In this document: positions 51,238 to 64,000 of the stretch, piece after piece | Position numbering within the stretch: position 1 is the stretch's first letter | Layout: every line of letters begins with the position of its first letter | NCBI RefSeq assembly: GCF_009695545.1 | Contig: NZ_VUNS01000002.1 | Coordinates: 372,001 to 436,000 of the forward strand | Reading direction: 5' to 3' | From: Victivallis lenta | GTDB lineage: Bacteria > Verrucomicrobiota > Lentisphaeria > Victivallales > Victivallaceae | Length of the DNA: 64,000 bases | The notes under the pieces: generated by a model | Databases searched by the model: none | The model's input: only the letters and a program-made list of their open reading frames with translations | What the model was told of the DNA's origin: nothing | Made by a program: the position numbers and the translations under genes

Positions 51238-51560
51238 CCCGGCATAAGACCGGTCAGTTCCGTTGCGGCCGGCACCGCCGGAAACTTGACAAACCTTTCG
51301 GACCTGCTATATTATTTCTTAGATGGGACGGGCGGCATTGCCGCTTTGTTGCATAGAGGAAAGCCGTTATGGAGAAGAGGAGGTGAAAAGCGATCAATAA
51401 ATCAGTTTCCGGCACGTTTCGCTCCAGATGTTTTTCAGACAGATAAATGAAAAACTTAAAGGAAGAGCGTGCGGCGGCGGGAGCCCGGAATACGGAATTC
51501 CCCGTCCCCGTTCCCGCCCGAAGTCGTATTGCAAATGAGGAAAAAAGAAGAGGTGGAGTT
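51238..51560 (+). other. Promoter and long leader of the META-lipoprotein operon
   Basis: TTGACA (51286-51291) and TATATT (51308-51313), spacer 16, are a strong promoter, yet the first lipoprotein begins only at 51561. The ~240-base leader holds a small hairpin near 51332-51343 and a five-codon ORF (ATG 51369, MEKRR, stop 51386) with a good ribosome-binding site. Its own codons contain AGGAGGTGA, an almost ideal Shine-Dalgarno sequence without a following start. No known riboswitch was recognised. Confidence 0.5.
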
Positions 51561-52001
51561 ATGAAATTCATGAAATCTGGCATTTTGAGTGCGGCAGTCG
51601 GAATTCTCATCCTGGCCGGAGGCTGCGCTTCCGACGCGGCGCTGAAGGAGACGGTCTGGACGCCGGTCAAGCTTGAAAACCAGGGCACGGTCGGCCTGGT
51701 TCAGGATCAGCCGGTCTGGTTCTCGGTCGGCAGCGACAACAAGGTCACCGGCAACGGCGGCGTCAACACGATCATCGGAACCGCCGCAGTCGCCGAAGAC
51801 GGCAAGCTTGTCTTCGAGCCGCTGGCCACAACCCGGAAAGCCGGTCCGAATCTCGCCTACGAGGCGATTTTCCTGAACGCGCTGAATGCGACGCGCACGT
51901 ATCAGATCAAGGAAGAGACGCTTCAGGTCTTCGACAAAGGCGGCAATCTGCTGGCGACCTTCACCGTCGGGCCGGAGTCTCTGACCAAAGAGAAGGAATA
52001 A
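51561..52001 (+). CDS. META-domain-like lipoprotein 1
   Basis: A 146-aa lipoprotein. The signal (KSGILSAAVGILILAGGC) ends in a lipobox with Cys at about 23. The mature part resembles a META/HslJ-type small beta-barrel: ALKETVWTPVKLENQG, GNGGVNTIIGTA, and LQVFDKGGNLLATF. Such domains appear in secreted or outer-membrane stress-related proteins with unknown biochemistry. AGAGGTGGAG precedes ATG 51561. It is a paralogue of the gene 180 bases downstream, with a GC-rich hairpin between them. Confidence 0.82.
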   Translation: MKFMKSGILSAAVGILILAGGCASDAALKETVWTPVKLENQGTVGLVQDQPVWFSVGSDNKVTGNGGVNTIIGTAAVAEDGKLVFEPLATTRKAGPNLAYEAIFLNALNATRTYQIKEETLQVFDKGGNLLATFTVGPESLTKEKE

Positions 52002-52048: not shown

Positions 52049-52182
52049 AAAGCTCCGGTCATGCAGACCGGGTACAATTCGTCAATTCAAACCGGCCGGG
52101 CGGTTCCGGCGGCGGCGTGAATGGAAAATCCCCGCCCCGCAGGCCTCCCGGCCGTGGTAACACAGCAGTGAAAGGACTGAAA

Positions 52183-52620
52183 ATGAAGTTCAAAAAAACC
52201 GGCGGCTTTCTGGCCGCCCTCGGCGCGGCAATCCTGATCGGCGGCTGCGCCACGGCACCGCTCAAGAACACGGTATGGGTTCCGGAAAAGCTCGACAACC
52301 AGGGCGACGTGAAACTCATCGAACCGACTCCGGTCTGGTTCGAGATCTACGAAACCGGCAAGGTGTTCGGCCACGGCGGCGTGAACCGCTTCTCGTCGCA
52401 GGCGACCATCGACCCGGAAAAGGGGGAACTCTCGTTCGCTCCCGGAGCCGCCACGCTGATGGCGGGCCCGAATCTCGGCTATGAGTCGAAATTCCTCGAA
52501 ACGATGAATGCGGTCCGCCGTTATTCCATCAGCGGGGACACCCTGACCGTCTATGACGCCAACGGCAAGGAGCTCGCAACCTTCAAGGCCGGTTCGGCCG
52601 AATTGAAAACTGCGAAATGA
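52183..52620 (+). CDS. META-domain-like lipoprotein 2
   Basis: A 145-aa lipoprotein with signal KKTGGFLAALGAAILIGGC and lipobox Cys at about 22. The mature domain parallels the previous gene: PLKNTVWVPEKLDNQGDVKL, FGHGGVNRFSS, AGPNLGYESKFLETMNAV, LTVYDANGKELATF. The gene pair probably arose by duplication. AAAGGAC lies upstream of ATG 52183. Its stop overlaps the start of the Xer recombinase (ATGA), so the recombinase is translated by coupling from this gene. Confidence 0.82.
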   Translation: MKFKKTGGFLAALGAAILIGGCATAPLKNTVWVPEKLDNQGDVKLIEPTPVWFEIYETGKVFGHGGVNRFSSQATIDPEKGELSFAPGAATLMAGPNLGYESKFLETMNAVRRYSISGDTLTVYDANGKELATFKAGSAELKTAK

Positions 52621-55520: not shown

Positions 55521-57191
55521 TCACGGTGTGGTCTGCGATTTGCTCTTGGCCGGCTGCTGCGGCTTGTCCATCGGGGCGGCCCATTCACATTCCCCGAGCA
55601 CGACGAGCTCGGAGTGCTTGATCGAAGTCGATTTGGTCGAAAACAAATAGCCGATCCACGGAATCGATTTCAGGATCGGAATGCCGGATTCGGATTTGAC
55701 TTCCTCCTGCTTCCTGAGTCCGCCGATGACAAAACTGTCCCTGCCGTACGGCAGACTCACATCCTGCGAGACCACACTGTTGCTCGAAATGCGGGGTGTG
55801 CCGTTCGATTCGAAACCGATCAGGCTCGAATTCGTGAGCGAAATCGTGAAGCGGGTCTCGGCCAGGTTGACCGATGCGTTCTCGACTTTCATCGTAAAAC
55901 CGAATCCGGTGAATTTTTCGACCTCCTGCCGGTTGCCCTTGCCGACCGGAAGGTCATTGTCCGCGATCTCGCGGCCGATCAGCTTCGAAAGAAGCTCGTA
56001 GGGGCCGACTCCCATATCCGGAAAGGCCGTCGCATCGCCGGCCGGCTTCGAAGTATCGACGTAGAAGATCTGCGTCTTGCGGTCAAGCAGCGCCGGAGTG
56101 TTGTTGCGGATGCAGAGCTCTCCGGTATAAGTCACCTTCGCATGGCCCTTGCTGGTCAGGAAATCAAGATAACGCGAATTCCATTTCGGGTTGAAGTTGT
56201 AGAAGCTCGTGCGCTCGGAGCCGGTCTGCCCCATGGCGCCGCCGTAGGTCGCCGCCCAGTTGTCGCGGTAACGGCCGCCGACGCTGAAAAAATCCGCGCC
56301 CTGATTGTTTTTCCAGGCCTGGAAATCGAGGCCGATCTTGTCGTCGTTTTCATGGTAGAGCTCGTAAACGGTGATCTTGAGCCGGACCTCCGGAATCGGC
56401 ACGTCGTACTCGGCCAGCATTTTTTCGATGTTCGGCTGCGAATAGTTCGTCACATCGAAAACGAGCCAGTTCAGATCCGGATCGTAGGCGACGAGATCCT
56501 GCCCCTGCCAGATTTCGGTTACGTCAGTCACGTTCATGCCGACGTTCTCGATCATCGGCATGAGGTTCCGCGCGGGGACGAATTTCGGAATATAGAAGAA
56601 AGTCTGCGTTCCGAGATTCTCCCCCATGGTCGGCTTGTCGAGGAACTCGACGAGGGAGTCGAACCCCATGCCGTTTTCATGGTTCTTGAACCGGTACTCT
56701 TCGGCGCTGATGATCAGCAGCCCGGTGCCGTCCGCGTATTTCAGGCATTCGACGGCCGTGTTGCTGCCGAGCTGCAGCGGCGGATTGTAGCCGGGCTGAG
56801 CGGTTGCCGGCGTCGTAAGCTCGGCCGAACTCGTCGTGGCCGCATACGGCAGCGCGGTCGTGTTCATCGGGAAAATCTGCTGCAGGCTCGTATTGCCGAC
56901 CCGCTTCGACTGAACCATCTGGCGGAGGTAGTCACGGATTTCATAGGCGTCGACGTGTTTCAGCAGATACGCCTTGGTCACGACGCGCGGATCGTTGTTG
57001 TCGCGGACGAAATGGACGACTTTCGCCTCGTCTTTGACCGGAACCTGAAGATGGACTTCAACCCGGGTGTTCCCGTAAGCGTCGGTATTGCCGAAATTCG
57101 AGTCGCGCGGCGGCGCCGGGGTTTCCGCGGCCCGAAGGACCGGAAGTGCGAATCCGAGAGCGGAAAGGATAACAATGTATTTCATATTCAT
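55521..57191 (-). CDS. Secretin-like outer-membrane protein, paralogue 1
   Basis: A 556-aa exported protein with signal peptide (MNMKYIVILSALGFALPVLR). N-like domains cover ~45-260 (KAYLLKHVDAYEIRDYLRQM, FFYIPKFVPARNLMPMI). The C-terminal secretin signature is visible: FVIGGLRKQEEVKSESGIPI followed by LKSIPWIGYLFSTKSTS. Secretins form outer-membrane channels for type II secretion and type IV pili. ATG 57191 has GAGGTG upstream. It starts 10 bases after the second secretin-like gene. No pilot protein, ATPase or platform gene is nearby, so the machinery it serves is unknown; the pseudopilins in this window are candidates. Confidence 0.82.
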   Translation of the reverse strand: MNMKYIVILSALGFALPVLRAAETPAPPRDSNFGNTDAYGNTRVEVHLQVPVKDEAKVVHFVRDNNDPRVVTKAYLLKHVDAYEIRDYLRQMVQSKRVGNTSLQQIFPMNTTALPYAATTSSAELTTPATAQPGYNPPLQLGSNTAVECLKYADGTGLLIISAEEYRFKNHENGMGFDSLVEFLDKPTMGENLGTQTFFYIPKFVPARNLMPMIENVGMNVTDVTEIWQGQDLVAYDPDLNWLVFDVTNYSQPNIEKMLAEYDVPIPEVRLKITVYELYHENDDKIGLDFQAWKNNQGADFFSVGGRYRDNWAATYGGAMGQTGSERTSFYNFNPKWNSRYLDFLTSKGHAKVTYTGELCIRNNTPALLDRKTQIFYVDTSKPAGDATAFPDMGVGPYELLSKLIGREIADNDLPVGKGNRQEVEKFTGFGFTMKVENASVNLAETRFTISLTNSSLIGFESNGTPRISSNSVVSQDVSLPYGRDSFVIGGLRKQEEVKSESGIPILKSIPWIGYLFSTKSTSIKHSELVVLGECEWAAPMDKPQQPAKSKSQTTP

Positions 57192-57201
57192 GATGGCCAC
57201 C

Positions 57202-58614
57202 TCACTTCAGCCTCTGCAGCACGCCGCTCTTTTCCCGGTTCGGGCTGGTGTTCAGAATTTCAGCCGTCACGGTCAGATAGACATGGGTTTTCTCCACACT
57301 CGTGGTCGTCGTTCCGAAAAAGTACTTGAGGACCGGAATCTCCGACAGGAACGGGACGCCGATGGTCTGCTCGACCTCCTCCTCCTTGTCCCACGAGGCG
57401 AGGATTTTCTCCTGATAGAGATCGATCGTGCTGTTGCCCTGAAGCTGAGTGGTCTCGACGAGCTCGGTACCGTAATTGTTGCGCTCGACCACATTCGCGG
57501 CCTGCACATCATATCCGAAGAAGAGCGTGCCGGGGACGCCGTCGTACTGGCCGGGCCGATATGACGGAATCGAAAAATCAATCTCCTCCCCGCTGTGCAG
57601 GCAGGCGATCGGCTTGATGATTTTCATGTAAATCTGGTTGAGCCCGTCCTGCGCGACCGAACTCGCTCCGACGCTGGTCTGGTCGTTGTTGGTTTTGACG
57701 ATGTTCTGCAGCTGCGGATTGAACATGATCTCATAGCTCTGCGTGTCGGAATTCGACACGGTCAGGTTCGAGGTGTTCTGCAAAGTCGCCTTGCCGTTCT
57801 GCTGAAGGACCCGGATGAAGCTCGCATCGAACTGCGGCGCGAAAAAGAATCCGCCGAGCGGCCCGGAGGCGGCCTGAATCGCCGCAGTTCCGCCCGAAGT
57901 GATGCCGAACGCGTCGAATCCGGCCTGGAAGATGTTCAGCCCCGGACCGTTCTTCCAGGCGAGATATTCGATGCCGATGTCGCGCAGCGAGCTTTCGCGG
58001 ACTTCATAAACGTTGAAGGTCAGATTGATCTGCGGCGGCGGACGGTCGAGAAAATCGAGGAACTGATAGATGAACTCCGAATTCGACGCATTGTCCTTCC
58101 AGTAAATCTGGTTTGAATTCTGATCCCAGCCGTAAACGGAGCCGTAGGGGCCTTCGTTGATGACCGCGTTCACGATCACGTTGACGAGCGTCTGGCCGGA
58201 ACGGAACTTCGGCCGGTAGACCGCGCGGGTGATGCCGGTTCCCCGGATGACGTCGCCCGGCGTCCTGCCGTCGACCTTCACATCCCGGTCGGCAATGGCG
58301 ACGAAGGCATCGACGTACGGCATCATGCCGACCGGACAGGTGACGGTCAGAAACTGTTCGTTCTGCGGACCGAATTCGATGCAGCTGACCGATGAATTCA
58401 TGTTGTACCGCTTGATCATGCTCGCGACCCAGGGCATGAGATCATTGGCCTGGGTGTATTTGAGCGTATAGATCTTCGACACCATGTAGTCCTGGGCGTC
58501 GTCCTGGACGAAACGCAGCTTCTGGACTCCGGGCTCGTCGGCGCCGCACAGCGCGCCGGCGGACAGAAACAGTGCCGGCACGGTCAGCGCGAATCGGATG
58601 GATGCTTTCCACAT
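57202..58614 (-). CDS. Secretin-like outer-membrane protein, paralogue 2
   Basis: A 470-aa exported protein with signal peptide residues 1-24 (MWKASIRFALTVPALFLSAG). N-like segments include SKIYTLKYTQANDLMPWVAS and GTGITRAVYRPKFRSGQTLV. The C-terminal part ends in TIGVPFLSEIPVLKYFFGTT, a secretin-type GVPxLxxIPxxxxxFG block, with TTSVEKTHVYLTVTAEIL as the last strand. It is a distant paralogue of the next gene: both share a RESSLRDIGIEYLAWKNG / HENDDKIGLDFQAWKNN segment. AGGAAG lies upstream of the ATG. Its promoter seems to be at 58812-58842, giving a leader near 190 bases. Confidence 0.8.
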   Translation of the reverse strand: MWKASIRFALTVPALFLSAGALCGADEPGVQKLRFVQDDAQDYMVSKIYTLKYTQANDLMPWVASMIKRYNMNSSVSCIEFGPQNEQFLTVTCPVGMMPYVDAFVAIADRDVKVDGRTPGDVIRGTGITRAVYRPKFRSGQTLVNVIVNAVINEGPYGSVYGWDQNSNQIYWKDNASNSEFIYQFLDFLDRPPPQINLTFNVYEVRESSLRDIGIEYLAWKNGPGLNIFQAGFDAFGITSGGTAAIQAASGPLGGFFFAPQFDASFIRVLQQNGKATLQNTSNLTVSNSDTQSYEIMFNPQLQNIVKTNNDQTSVGASSVAQDGLNQIYMKIIKPIACLHSGEEIDFSIPSYRPGQYDGVPGTLFFGYDVQAANVVERNNYGTELVETTQLQGNSTIDLYQEKILASWDKEEEVEQTIGVPFLSEIPVLKYFFGTTTTSVEKTHVYLTVTAEILNTSPNREKSGVLQRLK

Positions 58615-59133: not shown

Positions 59134-59149
59134 ATTCAAGTACTTGAAT
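59134..59149. promoter_or_regulatory. Distal operator-like palindrome of module D
   Basis: ATTCAAGTACTTGAAT is a perfect 16-bp palindrome. Its 12-bp core TCAAGTACTTGA recurs 122 bases downstream over the -35 box, a layout typical of LacI-family proteins that loop DNA between two sites. Confidence 0.7.
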
Positions 59150-59257
59150 GACAATTGAAAATACGTTTCTCAAAATTGTATGCCTTCAAGATTTTTTATT
59201 GAATACCAGACGCTTATGAATTCATCCGAACAAAAAAGAAATTGGAAGAAAAAAATT

Positions 59258-59269
59258 TCAAGTACTTGA
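59258..59269. promoter_or_regulatory. Proximal operator-like palindrome of module D
   Basis: TCAAGTACTTGA overlaps the first four bases of the -35 hexamer TTGACA, so a bound repressor would block the promoter directly. Confidence 0.7.
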
Positions 59270-59294
59270 CAAAACGATTTGTTTTTGGTATAAT
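59266..59294 (+). promoter_or_regulatory. Consensus sigma70 promoter of module D
   Basis: TTGACA (59266-59271), 17-base spacer, TATAAT (59289-59294): both hexamers are perfect. Transcription should begin near 59301. Confidence 0.85.
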
Positions 59295-59328
59295 TATAGC
59301 AACGATGACAGAAACGGAAGGCTTTTCA

Positions 59329-60333
59329 ATGATCTCAATGAAGGAAATCGGCAAAATCTGCGGCGTCACCGAATCGACGGTGTCGAAGGCGCTGCGCGGT
59401 CATGCCGGCATCAAGCAGGCCACCCGGGAACGTGTCGCCGAGGTCGCCCGCAAATACGGTTACCAGCCGAACGCGATGGTCGAATGCATGCAGACCGGCA
59501 AAAGCCGCAGCATCGGCATCGCCTGCAATAATTTCCAGTGCATGTTCACCGGCGCGGTCATGGACGGAATCCATAAGACGCTTCACGATTACGGCTATGA
59601 TTCCTATGTGATCTGCTGGGACCGGCTGGTGAAGGACGACATCGACCTCCTGAGCCGCTTCGTCCGCCGCCGCGTCGACGGGCTGCTGCTCCTGCCGATG
59701 GAGTGTCCGCCCTCGCCGTCGCACATCGCGCAGCTGCATTCGTTCCACAATCCGGTCGTCCTGATCGACCAGGTCTGGAGAGGGTCGGATTTCGACTATG
59801 TCGGCAGCGACAACCGCGGAGGCGCGGCCGCCCTCGTCGAACGGCTGATTGCGGCCGGGCGGCGCAGAATCGGCTCGGTCATCTTCACGGAGGTCAGCTC
59901 CGGCGAAGAGCGGCGCACCGGTTTTCTTGATGCGATGTTCCGGCACAACATGCCGGTGGATGCGCGTTTTCTCTGCAAAGTCACCGATTCCAAAAGCAGT
60001 TACGAGGAGATCCGCAAGCTGCTGTCGGCGGAAGAGCGCCCCGACGCGCTCGTCTGCTTCAACGACTATCTCGCCAACGATGCACTCAACGCCGCCTTCG
60101 ATCTCGGCATCCGGGTTCCCGAAGAGCTGGCGATTACGGGGTTCGGCAATCTGCCGATTTGTGAAAAGCTGCGGCCGGCGCTGACCACCGTCGACCAGCA
60201 CGCGGGCCTGATCGGGCAGACCGCCGCCCGGCTGCTCATGGAGCGGATCACCGGCAACGAAACCGGGCCGTGCCGCGAGCTGCTGGTGCCGGCGAACCCG
60301 GTCTATCGCCAATCCTGCGGATGTGCACTCTGA
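59329..60333 (+). CDS. LacI-family transcriptional regulator (module D)
   Basis: A 334-aa regulator. The N-terminal LacI helix-turn-helix is clear: MKEIGKICGVTESTVSKALR, GHAGIKQATRERVAEVARKY, GYQPN. The sensor has SIGIACNNFQCMFTGAVMDG, VDGLLLLPME, DNRGGAAALVERLIAAGRRR and RVPEELAITGFGN, standard LacI/GalR blocks, ending in a Cys-rich tail (SCGCAL). ATG 59329 follows GGAAGG by 7 bases; the upstream ATG 59305 would be almost leaderless. It is followed by two pseudopilins and a large glycosidase. Two palindromes at its promoter suggest autoregulation. Confidence 0.92.
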   Translation: MISMKEIGKICGVTESTVSKALRGHAGIKQATRERVAEVARKYGYQPNAMVECMQTGKSRSIGIACNNFQCMFTGAVMDGIHKTLHDYGYDSYVICWDRLVKDDIDLLSRFVRRRVDGLLLLPMECPPSPSHIAQLHSFHNPVVLIDQVWRGSDFDYVGSDNRGGAAALVERLIAAGRRRIGSVIFTEVSSGEERRTGFLDAMFRHNMPVDARFLCKVTDSKSSYEEIRKLLSAEERPDALVCFNDYLANDALNAAFDLGIRVPEELAITGFGNLPICEKLRPALTTVDQHAGLIGQTAARLLMERITGNETGPCRELLVPANPVYRQSCGCAL

Positions 60334-60362: not shown

Positions 60363-60446
60363 ATGAAAAAGAACAGCTGCGGGTTTCAGGTCGGGAGAGA
60401 GAGCGGAGTCGGTTCGTATAATGTACAATATGTCAAGTTGTTTTGA
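60363..60446 (+). CDS. Possible 27-aa small protein
   Basis: ATG 60363 follows a very good AAGGAGAAGG site 29 bases after the LacI stop and encodes MKKNSCGFQVGRESGVGSYN plus seven residues. The ribosome-binding site argues for translation, but the peptide has no recognisable features. It may be a leader peptide or the remnant of a displaced pseudopilin start. Confidence 0.35.
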   Translation: MKKNSCGFQVGRESGVGSYNVQYVKLF

Positions 60447-60529
60447 GGCTCAGTAACCATAAATTTCAAATTACGGGAGAACGGTACCATGAGAAACATG
60501 CAGAAGTCGTCTAACATACTGTACATTAT
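60417..60529. repeat. 15-bp inverted repeat pair flanking the pseudopilin start region
   Basis: ATAATGTACAATATG (60418-60432) and CATACTGTACATTAT (60515-60529) are reverse complements with one mismatch. The left arm contains a perfect TATAAT (60417-60422) and the right arm overlaps an alternative start, ATG 60528. They could be operators, or ends of a small insertion. Confidence 0.5.
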
Positions 60530-61235
60530 GAGTCTGCGCAAATCCACGCGGTTCACGCTGATCGAACTCCTGGTGGTGATTGCGATCATCGCGATCCTCG
60601 CTTCGATGCTCCTGCCGGCGCTGAACCAGGCCCGCGGGCGGGCCAAATCCTCTCAGTGCCTCAGCAACCTGAAGCAGGTCGCCACCGCCTGCGTCATGTA
60701 TGCGCAGGACTACAACGGAATGCTTACCCGTCCTCATTTGAGAGGCACCTATTATTGGTCGAACCTCATGGTCGACGGCAAATATCTGCCGGAGAGCGAC
60801 GTCGTTCTCTGCCCCGAACAGAAGATCAAGCGTCCGTACAAAAATAACTCCGACGCCCTCTACACCTACGGGCTGAACCGCGACGTCGAGCGGGACGGTT
60901 CGGCTTCCGGAAGAGCGACGGCCAGCGGCTTCTACCGTAACGTCCTCAAGGGGCGCCGCCAGGCCGCTTCGATCACCTGGCTGGTCGGCGACAGCCTCCG
61001 CGCCAAGAACGAAACCTCCGTCGCCCTCGGCCAGACCTGCGCGAACCTGAGCTGGAACTCCGGCGGCGAAGGGCGGGCCGCGCTGCGGCACAGCCGGCGC
61101 GCCAACTTCGGCTTCGTCGACGGCAGCGCCCGTTCCCTCGGGGCCGGGGATATGCACAAGGTCCACCCGCAGTTCGAAGCGTGGTACCTGGACGACATGA
61201 TCGCCGTCATGCAGCTGCCGCCTTACAGCCTCTGA
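60489..61235 (+). CDS. Pseudopilin-like protein 1 (module D)
   Basis: A 248-aa protein. After a longer leader ([21 protein letters not shown]) comes [19 protein letters not shown] with Glu+5, with Arg at -1 instead of Gly. Globular features include [30 protein letters not shown] and a full H-x9-DG signature ([13 protein letters not shown]). GGAGAAC lies upstream of ATG 60489; ATG 60528 would give a leader of normal length but has no ribosome-binding site. It sits between the LacI regulator and a second pseudopilin. Role inferred as for the other five. Confidence 0.85.
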
Positions 61236-61444
61236 CACCATGTAAATCCTGAATGTTCGGAGTCTCGGGCGGAGCTGCACGGCTGCAGGCCCGCCCGGAA
61301 GACCGGAACGGAACGAACAAGGAGAGTTTGCAACGTACTGAAATCTCGGAACAGGGCGTCGCGGGCCGGCGGGCCGCGGCGCCGGCAATTCATTGTGCGA
61401 CGATCCCAACGGTTTCCCGGGTGTTCATAAACGGAAGGAACGAG

Positions 61445-62131
61445 ATGATGCGCAAGAGATCGGAGAACTTTACCCTGATTGAACTTCTGGTTGTCATCGC
61501 GATCATCGCGATTCTCGCTTCGATGCTGTTGCCCGCCCTGACGAAAGCGCGTGAAAATGCCAAGGCGACCAATTGCCTGAGCAATCTCAAGCAGATCGGA
61601 CTGTCCCTGACCCAGTACGCCGGAGACTATCACGGCATGATTCCGGCAGGCATGGGGAAAAAAGACGGTGCGGTCTATTACTGGAGCAATGCTCTCTGCG
61701 ACGGCCGTTACGTGCCGGAAAGCAATGTGTTTTACTGCCCTTCGTTCCCGCAGAACAAAAAGTTTTCCAACGATTACTCCGCGATTCACACCTATGGAAT
61801 CAACCGCGACATGGAGCAGCAGACCCGTGACGAAAGCATCATCATTTACAATAACCTTTACAAGATCAGAAAAAACAAAAGCGCCTCCAACACCTGGCTG
61901 GCCGGGGACAGTATCGGCAAGGGCTGGTGGGCTCCCGAGCTGCTCCCGACCCCGATGATCAGCTGGAACAACGGGACCAACCACAACGCGACGCTGCGTC
62001 ACAACCGCCGGTGCAGCATGGTATTTTCCGACGGCAGCACGCGCAAGGTGGATGAGGGCTCTTTTCTGACGATTTATCCCCGCATCCAGGAATATTTCAT
62101 TCTTGATTCAATAAAGACCAACAACCTGTAA
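61445..62131 (+). CDS. Pseudopilin-like protein 2 (module D)
   Basis: A 228-aa protein with N-terminus [27 protein letters not shown], Asn at -1 and Glu+5 present. It contains [20 protein letters not shown], a CPSFPQNKK segment and a full H-x9-DG signature ([13 protein letters not shown]). GGAAGGAACGAG lies directly before ATG 61445; the longer frame from 61253 includes an implausible Ala/Arg-rich extension. It shares the YYWSN...DG(K/R)Y(V/L)PES segment with the previous pseudopilin, showing they are paralogues. It lies 13 bases before the glycosidase start. Confidence 0.87.
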
Positions 62132-62144
62132 ACAAGGAGACTCC

Positions 62145-64000
62145 ATGCCTCAGACCCGTTTTATCACACCCATTCTCTTCGCGCTGGCGGCGACAGCCGC
62201 AGCCGCCGAGGTTGCCTTTCAGAACGGTTCCTTCGAACAGGGGACCGGCGGTTACTGGATCAACCGCCCGGCCGCCGTCCGCGTCGATTCGACCGACTCG
62301 ACCGACGGCATGCAGTGCATTGCGATCACGCCGCCGGAGACCGGAACCACCAGCGTCGTGCAAGGAGTGAAACTTGTTCCGGATACGGTTTACGTGGTCT
62401 CGTTCGATGCACGGGCCGGCGTTCCGGCGAACGGGCCGCAGCTGACCATGGCCGCCATGCTGCAGGGCGACAAGCCGATCGCCTTTTTCGAGGGCTCCGC
62501 CGAGCAGAAGAAAGCGCTCGCCACACCGGCGGCAGTCACCGACAAATGGCAGACCTTCACGCAAAAAATCGGACCGGTCCCCGCCACAGTGCAGGGCAAA
62601 ACGGTCAAAAAGCTCATGCTCTACTGGAATGTGAAACCGGGCGAACCCGGTTCCCGCCTCTTCCTCGACAACATCAGAATCACGGCCGAAGCCGCCGCTC
62701 CGCAGAGCACCCCGCAGAGCGTGCCGGAAAAGGGTGGCGCGAAACCGGCGGCCCAAGGCTCCGGGCTGCTGAAAAACGGCTCTTTCGAACAGGGGACCGG
62801 CGGATACTGGATCAACCGCGCCGCCGCGGTCAAAATCGAAAAGGAGGATGCCAGCGACGGCAGACAGAGTCTCCGCATCGACCCGCCGGCCGGAGCGACG
62901 GTCAACGTGACGCAGGGGACGAAATACCAGCCCGGTCAGGTCTACGTGATCTCGTTCGACGCGCGTTCGACCGTGCCGGAGGGCGGCCCGCTGCTCACGG
63001 TGAGCGCGATGATGCAGGGCGACAAACCGATCGCCTTCTTCCCCGGCGTCGGCGCGCAGAAAGCCGCACTCAAAACGCCGGTCGCACTGACCGACAAATG
63101 GCAGAATTTCACGCTGAAGATCGGCCCGTTCCCGCCGGAGGCGATGGGGCGCGCGGTCAAAAACATCCTGTTCTACTGGAATGTGAAGCAGGGAGACACG
63201 CCCGCGCAGCTGCTGCTCGACAACCTGCGGCTCACGACCGAACCGGCCGCCGCCGGAGACGAAACCGGCGGCGCGGAGGCCCCCGCGGGGGCGATCCGCT
63301 TCGAACTGCCGGACCCGGTGCGCATTTATGAATCCGTCCCGGCATTTACGGTCCGTGCGGAGGTCGGCAAAGGACAGCTCCGGGTGACCGGGACCGACGC
63401 CTTCGGCCGCCGGCTGTTCGCCACGGAGGGGAAGCCCGGCGAACCGAAGCTCGCCGTCACGCTCCCCGGCCCCGACTACTACGCCCTCCGCGCCGAGGTC
63501 GTCGAGAACGGCAAAACCGTAAAATCGGCGGAGACCTCGCTGATGGTGACGACGCCGCTGCCGGGAGACTACTATTCGACGCCGCACCCCGCCTTCGGCG
63601 TCTGGGGCGGGTTGACTCCGGAGCTTCGCCGGATTGCCGGGGCCAAATGGGACCGGCAACTTTTTTTTACCTTCTTCCAGAAACCGGACGCCGCAGCGGA
63701 ACCTCCCGGCGCGGATAAACTCGCCGCCCGCGAGCCGGTCAAAATCATCCGCTGCATGAACGTCATGCACCCGTTCAAGAAGATGGTGCCGTACACCGCG
63801 GCGGAACTCGAAGAGCAGCGGGCGAAACTCACGAAGGAGATCGTCTCGCGCCGCGGCCTGGTCGATGTATGGGAGACCCAGAACGAACCGATGGTCGGCG
63901 AAAACTTCCACGGCACCATGAAGGACGTCATGGACATCATCCGCATGGAGAGCGAGGTCGTCCGCAAACACGATCCGGGCCGTCCCGTCGCCGGAATCTG
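62145..64000 (+). CDS. Secreted glycosidase with two tandem carbohydrate-binding domains (module D, 3'-truncated by window)
   Basis: The frame is open from ATG 62145 (AAGGAG upstream) to the window end, giving over 618 residues. A signal peptide covers residues 1-21. Two homologous carbohydrate-binding-like sandwiches follow, ~24-180 and ~206-365, both starting NGSFEQGTGGYWINR and sharing MQGDKPIAFF, separated by a Pro/Gln linker. Then come an Ig-like segment and the beginning of a TIM barrel (HPAFGVWGGLTPELRR); VDVWETQNEPMVGE has the predicted acid/base Glu (about 581). The CBMs look like the CBM4/9/22 type. It is the enzyme of module D. Family and substrate remain open. Confidence 0.85.
   Translation, partial: MPQTRFITPILFALAATAAAAEVAFQNGSFEQGTGGYWINRPAAVRVDSTDSTDGMQCIAITPPETGTTSVVQGVKLVPDTVYVVSFDARAGVPANGPQLTMAAMLQGDKPIAFFEGSAEQKKALATPAAVTDKWQTFTQKIGPVPATVQGKTVKKLMLYWNVKPGEPGSRLFLDNIRITAEAAAPQSTPQSVPEKGGAKPAAQGSGLLKNGSFEQGTGGYWINRAAAVKIEKEDASDGRQSLRIDPPAGATVNVTQGTKYQPGQVYVISFDARSTVPEGGPLLTVSAMMQGDKPIAFFPGVGAQKAALKTPVALTDKWQNFTLKIGPFPPEAMGRAVKNILFYWNVKQGDTPAQLLLDNLRLTTEPAAAGDETGGAEAPAGAIRFELPDPVRIYESVPAFTVRAEVGKGQLRVTGTDAFGRRLFATEGKPGEPKLAVTLPGPDYYALRAEVVENGKTVKSAETSLMVTTPLPGDYYSTPHPAFGVWGGLTPELRRIAGAKWDRQLFFTFFQKPDAAAEPPGADKLAAREPVKIIRCMNVMHPFKKMVPYTAAELEEQRAKLTKEIVSRRGLVDVWETQNEPMVGENFHGTMKDVMDIIRMESEVVRKHDPGRPVAGI

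Follow-up and report, generated by a model that had tools for sequence, protein, structure and literature searches.

The lacI-family gene in the window (the whole stretch of 64,000 nucleotides of Victivallis lenta DNA analysed here) probably encodes a local autorepressor, which acts at an operator on its own promoter with the help of an auxiliary operator upstream, most likely through a loop; the downstream genes would be repressed along with it and induced by a sugar. The protein is predicted to bind palindromes directly upstream of its own gene. Because of the position of the promoter operator, repressor bound there would cover the -35 hexamer and stop its own transcription, and the same repression would extend to the pseudopilin and GH39-like hydrolase genes that follow. 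The palindrome 122 bp upstream would raise occupancy of the promoter operator, the two bound dimers most likely being joined by a DNA loop as in lac, and an inducer, probably a sugar freed by the hydrolase, would relieve repression. The features of the locus are listed below.

59134..59149, no strand assigned: distal (auxiliary) operator ATTCAAGTACTTGAAT, a perfect 16-bp palindrome scoring 23.3 bits with the ortholog matrix
59255..59272, no strand assigned: promoter (main) operator ATTTCAAGTACTTGACAA, at the same place in 16 of 17 ortholog loci
59266..59271, plus strand: -35 hexamer TTGACA, overlapped by the promoter operator
59289..59294, plus strand: -10 hexamer TATAAT, 17 bp from the -35 hexamer
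59316..59321, plus strand: likely ribosome-binding site GGAAGG, by direct sequence reading
59329..60333, plus strand: lacI-family repressor, 334 aa (PF00356, PF13377; closest solved relatives PurR and CcpA)
60489..61235 (start may be 60528), plus strand: pseudopilin-like gene (PF07963, TIGR02532, partial GspG, ortholog synteny)
61253..62131 (likely start near 61445), plus strand: second pseudopilin-like gene (PF07596, PF07963)
62145..64000, continuing to 65921 past the window, plus strand: exported GH39-like hydrolase, 1258 aa (CBM_4_9, CBM9)

The core of the promoter operator, TCAAGTACTTGA, is read directly at 59258-59269, and the centres of the distal and promoter palindromes are 122 bp apart. 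The initial annotation had described the palindrome pair, its spacing, the overlap with the -35 hexamer and the consensus promoter, and every one of these details is correct on re-reading the letters. The window holds five matches to the core at up to two mismatches (0.59 expected), and two of them are exact. In the whole genome of 5,545,070 bases these two are the only exact copies, and the reversed control has none. The genome search that had been proposed as a way to define a regulon thus finds no third exact site and hence no wider regulon; the 'regulon' is a single locus, and the LacI-family regulator looks strictly local. A regulon drawn from near-matches was rejected, as TCAAGTRCTTGA with at most one mismatch gives 26 matches on both strands versus 39 for the reversed control.

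Searches for orthologs in the order (137 genomes) and in 387 genomes sampled evenly across the phylum yielded 17 ortholog loci in 17 genomes, including its own, and one close paralog in G001. Orthologs of the same genus include that of Victivallis vadensis DSM 14823 (L053), which is 77% identical. An operator lies over the -35 hexamer in 16 of the 17 loci, at protein identities of 47-100%. The core of this promoter operator is exact in 15 orthologs and has one mismatch in G031. Its TTGA is the start of the -35 hexamer in 16 of 16 cases, and a -10 hexamer follows at 16-17 bp in all 16, with the sequence TATAAT in 14. The core was also searched across 34 genomes, 17 with and 17 without an ortholog. 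Exact copies are present in 15 of the 17 ortholog genomes, every copy at the ortholog gene; G031 and G303 have none, and G031 carries a pair with one mismatch each. Among the ortholog-free genomes, G021 has one exact copy, G056 has two and the others have none. The G021 copy and one of the two G056 copies lie inside long open frames (430 and 207 codons), and no LacI domain is found within the fetched stretches near the G021 copy and one G056 copy. As had been proposed, the sites thus look like operators of the neighbouring LacI gene: one sits over the -35 hexamer in nearly every locus, and every exact copy in the ortholog genomes lies at that gene. The paralog L045 (G001:C120:3905-4894, 53% identity) has the same recognition helix, yet its own start carries no operator; it may therefore act at the operator of the other gene, and the missing site is a point against the autorepressor reading.

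The repressor most plausibly starts at ATG 59329, which is preceded by GGAAGG. Matches to PF00356 (E 4e-12, 46.2 bits, cut-off 27) and PF13377 (E 1.4e-33, 116.7 bits, cut-off 26.5) predict an N-terminal LacI helix-turn-helix and a periplasmic-binding-protein-like sensor, the domain pair of the LacI/GalR family. The centre of the operator is TA in all 16 ortholog promoter operators. Membership stands despite this, since a CG centre is usual and not obligatory: in the available part of PMC4052901 (Ravcheev et al. 2014), a survey of LacI-family regulators, 1173 of 1303 have a CG centre and 49 of 1303 another one. The Leu that is usual at the hinge-helix lever position in LacI/GalR proteins is absent here; the residue is Met, and it is Met, Ile or Val across all 17 orthologs. 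Of 369 aligned LacI-domain sequences, 166 have a Leu lever residue and 55 a Met. By families, counted by eye, Leu levers go with 15 CG and two other centres and non-Leu levers with five CG and four other centres (Fisher p 0.14), a tendency of non-Leu levers toward non-CG centres that is not significant and suggestive only. The nearest solved structures are those of PurR (1vpw/2pua, E about 7e-36), with 1vpw the best PDB match. The protein shares the fold and length of E. coli PurR; the alignment covers residues 4-314 and has no gaps in the hinge-helix region. The position of PurR Leu54 is Met here, and also in the 1vpw chain; the PurR L54M variant is reportedly the subject of a published paper. 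Unlike PurR, this repressor has a TA-centred operator and a local regulon of a single locus. It aligns to LacI residues 5-312 of 360, after which about 23 residues remain versus 48 in LacI, and in this alignment the C-terminal tetramerization region of LacI is missing.

The second site recurs among the orthologs and its place changes. An operator matrix was made from the 16 promoter operators (L045 was excluded, and G303 had no site to contribute) and was used to scan the 17 loci, 242,861 bases in all. It finds 31 places of at least 17 bits, all at lacI, and no other place exceeds 12.2 bits; shuffled DNA is expected to give 0.0004 hits of at least 17 bits per 1150-bp lacI unit. Beyond the 16 promoter sites there are 15 auxiliary sites at this threshold. 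At least one is present in 13 of the 16 orthologs that bear a promoter site, and G106, G011 and G051 have the promoter operator alone. The auxiliary sites are of three kinds by location: 56 to 124 bp upstream, at lacI codons 170-173 and at codons 308-313.

Upstream (n=7), centre distance to the promoter operator: G000 (own genome) 122 bp, G002 122 bp, G007 124 bp, G001 56 bp, G031 90 bp, G134 91 bp, G136 91 bp
Intragenic at about +514 (n=4), exact cores: G046, G134, G135, G136
Intragenic at about +930 (n=4): G053, G058, G119, G120

An intragenic operator is therefore found within the repressor's own coding sequence in 8 of 16 orthologs, at about 570-590 or 995 bp from the promoter site. In G134 and G136 the promoter site stands between two further copies, one 91 bp upstream and one 589 bp away inside the gene. 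The codons at the internal sites are preserved, where the background identity within those genera is 87/247 and 98/266 of amino-acid-conserved degenerate codons. Of the six-codon windows only the +930 site is unchanged in all four of its genomes; of the five-codon windows three are unchanged in their four, the +514 site among them. With four related genomes per genus, this preservation is supportive but not conclusive.

With a period of 11.15 bp, itself fitted to the data, the upstream spacings of 56, 90, 91, 122 and 124 bp fall into a single phase (R 0.89, p 0.04; n=5 distinct values, of which 122 and 124 are not independent). In the available part of the study of LacR loops in vivo, the fitted helical repeat is 11.08-11.60 bp per turn (PMC1762422). 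The recurrence of the auxiliary site at changing places, the shared phase and the match with the LacR repeat make looping its likeliest use. The looping layout that the initial annotation had read from the window is thus upheld in part. Two or more candidate operators at one promoter, the arrangement known from lac, are present, a second operator occurs in 13 of 16 orthologs and the upstream phase is shared; the tetramerization tail is missing, phasing among paralogs is borderline and 3 of 16 orthologs are single-site.

Paired palindromes are also frequent at other LacI-family genes. The own genome has 85 LacI-domain genes, and a matching pair lies upstream of 17 of them versus a mean of 0.5 in 20 shuffling rounds. 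At a stricter score in four genomes, pairs occur in 27 of 252 upstream regions, while 1.3 are expected when different regions are paired. From this excess, paired private operators look like a habit of the lineage, in agreement with the available portion of Ravcheev et al. (PMC4052901), where about 20% of LacI-family-regulated operons are preceded by multiple sites and the spacings peak at 13, 22 and 32 bp. Many LacI paralogs of the own genome bear their own, differing paired palindromes; for example, ATGTACCGGTACAT stands twice at L120 and ATTTTGCGCAAAAT twice at L146, in both cases as exact copies spaced 81 bp. Upstream regions were covered for 85/85 genes in G000, 71/72 in G007, 58/58 in G026, 38/58 in G119, 33/56 in G002 and 48/63 in G003. 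For the 19 pair spacings of the own genome the phase signal is promising (R 0.59, pmax 0.005); it is weak for 23 spacings from the remaining three of the four genomes (R 0.28, p 0.18) and marginal in a second set, G002 and G003, where R is 0.38 with p 0.055 at 11.2 bp and a best period of 10.70 (n=21). The thresholds and the jitter null were the analyst's choice, and several were tried. After clustering of related DNA-binding domains, p at 11.2 bp is 0.04-0.18 depending on the threshold and 0.06-0.28 for a fitted period, in a set where two clusters come from one locus (L405). A control with non-palindromic repeats has weak periodicity unmasked (R 0.19, p 0.015); with operators masked, R is 0.13 with p 0.14 at 11.2 bp and pmax 0.04 for a fitted period. 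Some A/T-rich pairs in the phasing set are probably chance. Genome-wide phasing of operator pairs near 11 bp is borderline after clustering.

Two operators could also act with no loop, each dimer bound independently, the promoter site repressing and the other serving as a reservoir or an intragenic roadblock. The repressor without a tetramerization tail fits this well, and the spacings of the internal sites, about 570-590 and 995 bp, are equally compatible with a roadblock and with a loop. There is a precedent in E. coli LacI, which acts as a roadblock on its own gene at O3 according to the available text of PMC3711431. However, the second site recurs at changing places, mostly at 124 bp or less upstream, where a roadblock could not affect lacI, and the upstream spacings share a single phase; we consider independent dimers unlikely, though still a serious reading.

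The distal palindrome might instead serve a tandem or divergent promoter of its own and not the lacI promoter. Its TTGA could begin a -35 hexamer, and in G031 a TATCAT (5/6) follows 18 bp on. In the other six of the seven upstream copies, however, the best -10 on the plus strand matches at only 2-4 of 6 positions, the opposite strand offers candidates of only 2-4/6 in all seven, and no divergent gene is nearby, the next minus-strand gene starting at 58614. A second promoter at the distal operator is unsupported by the -10 search in 6 of 7 upstream cases, and such a role is very improbable. It is just as hard to believe, and if anything slightly harder, that a factor other than the adjacent LacI protein binds the palindromes. 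The genome has its many other LacI-domain genes, and binding by the neighbouring protein is deduced from sequence. Against another factor, the site accompanies the ortholog in three families of the order, it is confined to this locus, and it is lost in G303, the most divergent ortholog (43% identity), where the recognition helix is changed and the promoter operator is absent. The autorepressor assisted by an auxiliary site, most likely by looping, is the reading we prefer.

The order lacI - pseudopilin - hydrolase is conserved, and a hydrolase homolog is present in all 17 loci, although in some of them the simple ORF caller broke the hydrolase up or placed an antisense frame over a section of it or over its neighbours. 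Gene order and strand suggest that the three are co-transcribed. The hydrolase of the own genome has a signal-like N-terminus, two CBM_4_9 stretches and CBM9 domains. Its middle part matches the GH39 structure 5jvk with E 1.5e-8 (four-row profile), and 5jvk is also the best fold match (E 3.9e-20, TM about 0.53) of an AlphaFold model of modest confidence (pLDDT 62.7). The whole protein has no match in the PDB by phmmer and none in NCBIfam; weak Pfam hits (DUF5722 in 4/4, GH39 in 1/4, GH5 in 1/4) are below curated cut-offs or near chance. Breakdown of a polysaccharide with induction by the product would be the natural reading of the operon's function. Between lacI and the first pseudopilin gene there is a 16-nt inverted repeat (60418-60433 and 60514-60529), with arms 15/16 complementary, 80 nt apart and each containing TGTACA; it could form a long stem or be a pair of operators for a different regulator. 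Upstream of the pseudopilin operon, adjacent secretin-domain genes (PF00263) lie on the minus strand at 55521-57200 and 57202-58614. The neighbouring ORFs 51447-52001 and 52117-52620 encode similar small proteins with lipoprotein-like starts, as read by eye from the translations.

The predicted layout is like that of E. coli lac (O1, O2, O3), with a main operator at the promoter and auxiliary operators upstream, intragenic or both. The arrangement in G134 and G136, 91 bp upstream and 589 bp internal, resembles lac O3 and O2; the lac O3 spacing is about 92 bp in the available part of PMC1762422. Unlike in lac, the operators here would control the repressor's own operon and the internal site is in the repressor gene, not in lacZ; unlike LacI, the repressor is without the tetramerization region and its operator is TA-centred. 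The local LacI-family regulators of Ravcheev et al. 2014, in what is available of PMC4052901, are similar in being local and autoregulated with an even palindrome. Sites in coding regions are below 1% in that part of the survey, unlike the intragenic site in half of the orthologs here, and the TA centre also differs from that set.

Among the papers listed in searches on Victivallis regulators and hydrolases and on intragenic auxiliary operators, we found none describing this regulator. Local autorepressors of the LacI family that use an auxiliary operator are a known type, of which this one is a new member; the shifting place of the auxiliary site is the most interesting feature of this repressor family. 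What is known of auxiliary operators comes largely from a few E. coli systems. Here, within one repressor family, the auxiliary site varies between upstream and intragenic places and the promoter site is fixed, and these natural variants can be used to test whether a second operator, and helical phase, are needed. The clean pair of operator and protein with a non-CG centre is useful for how the hinge helix selects the central step. With evenly divided confidence, we suggest that selection may retain the second operator as a function and leave its location free, which would make the family a natural test case for loop-assisted repression when the repressor is tail-less, reads a TA centre and has a Met, Ile or Val lever.
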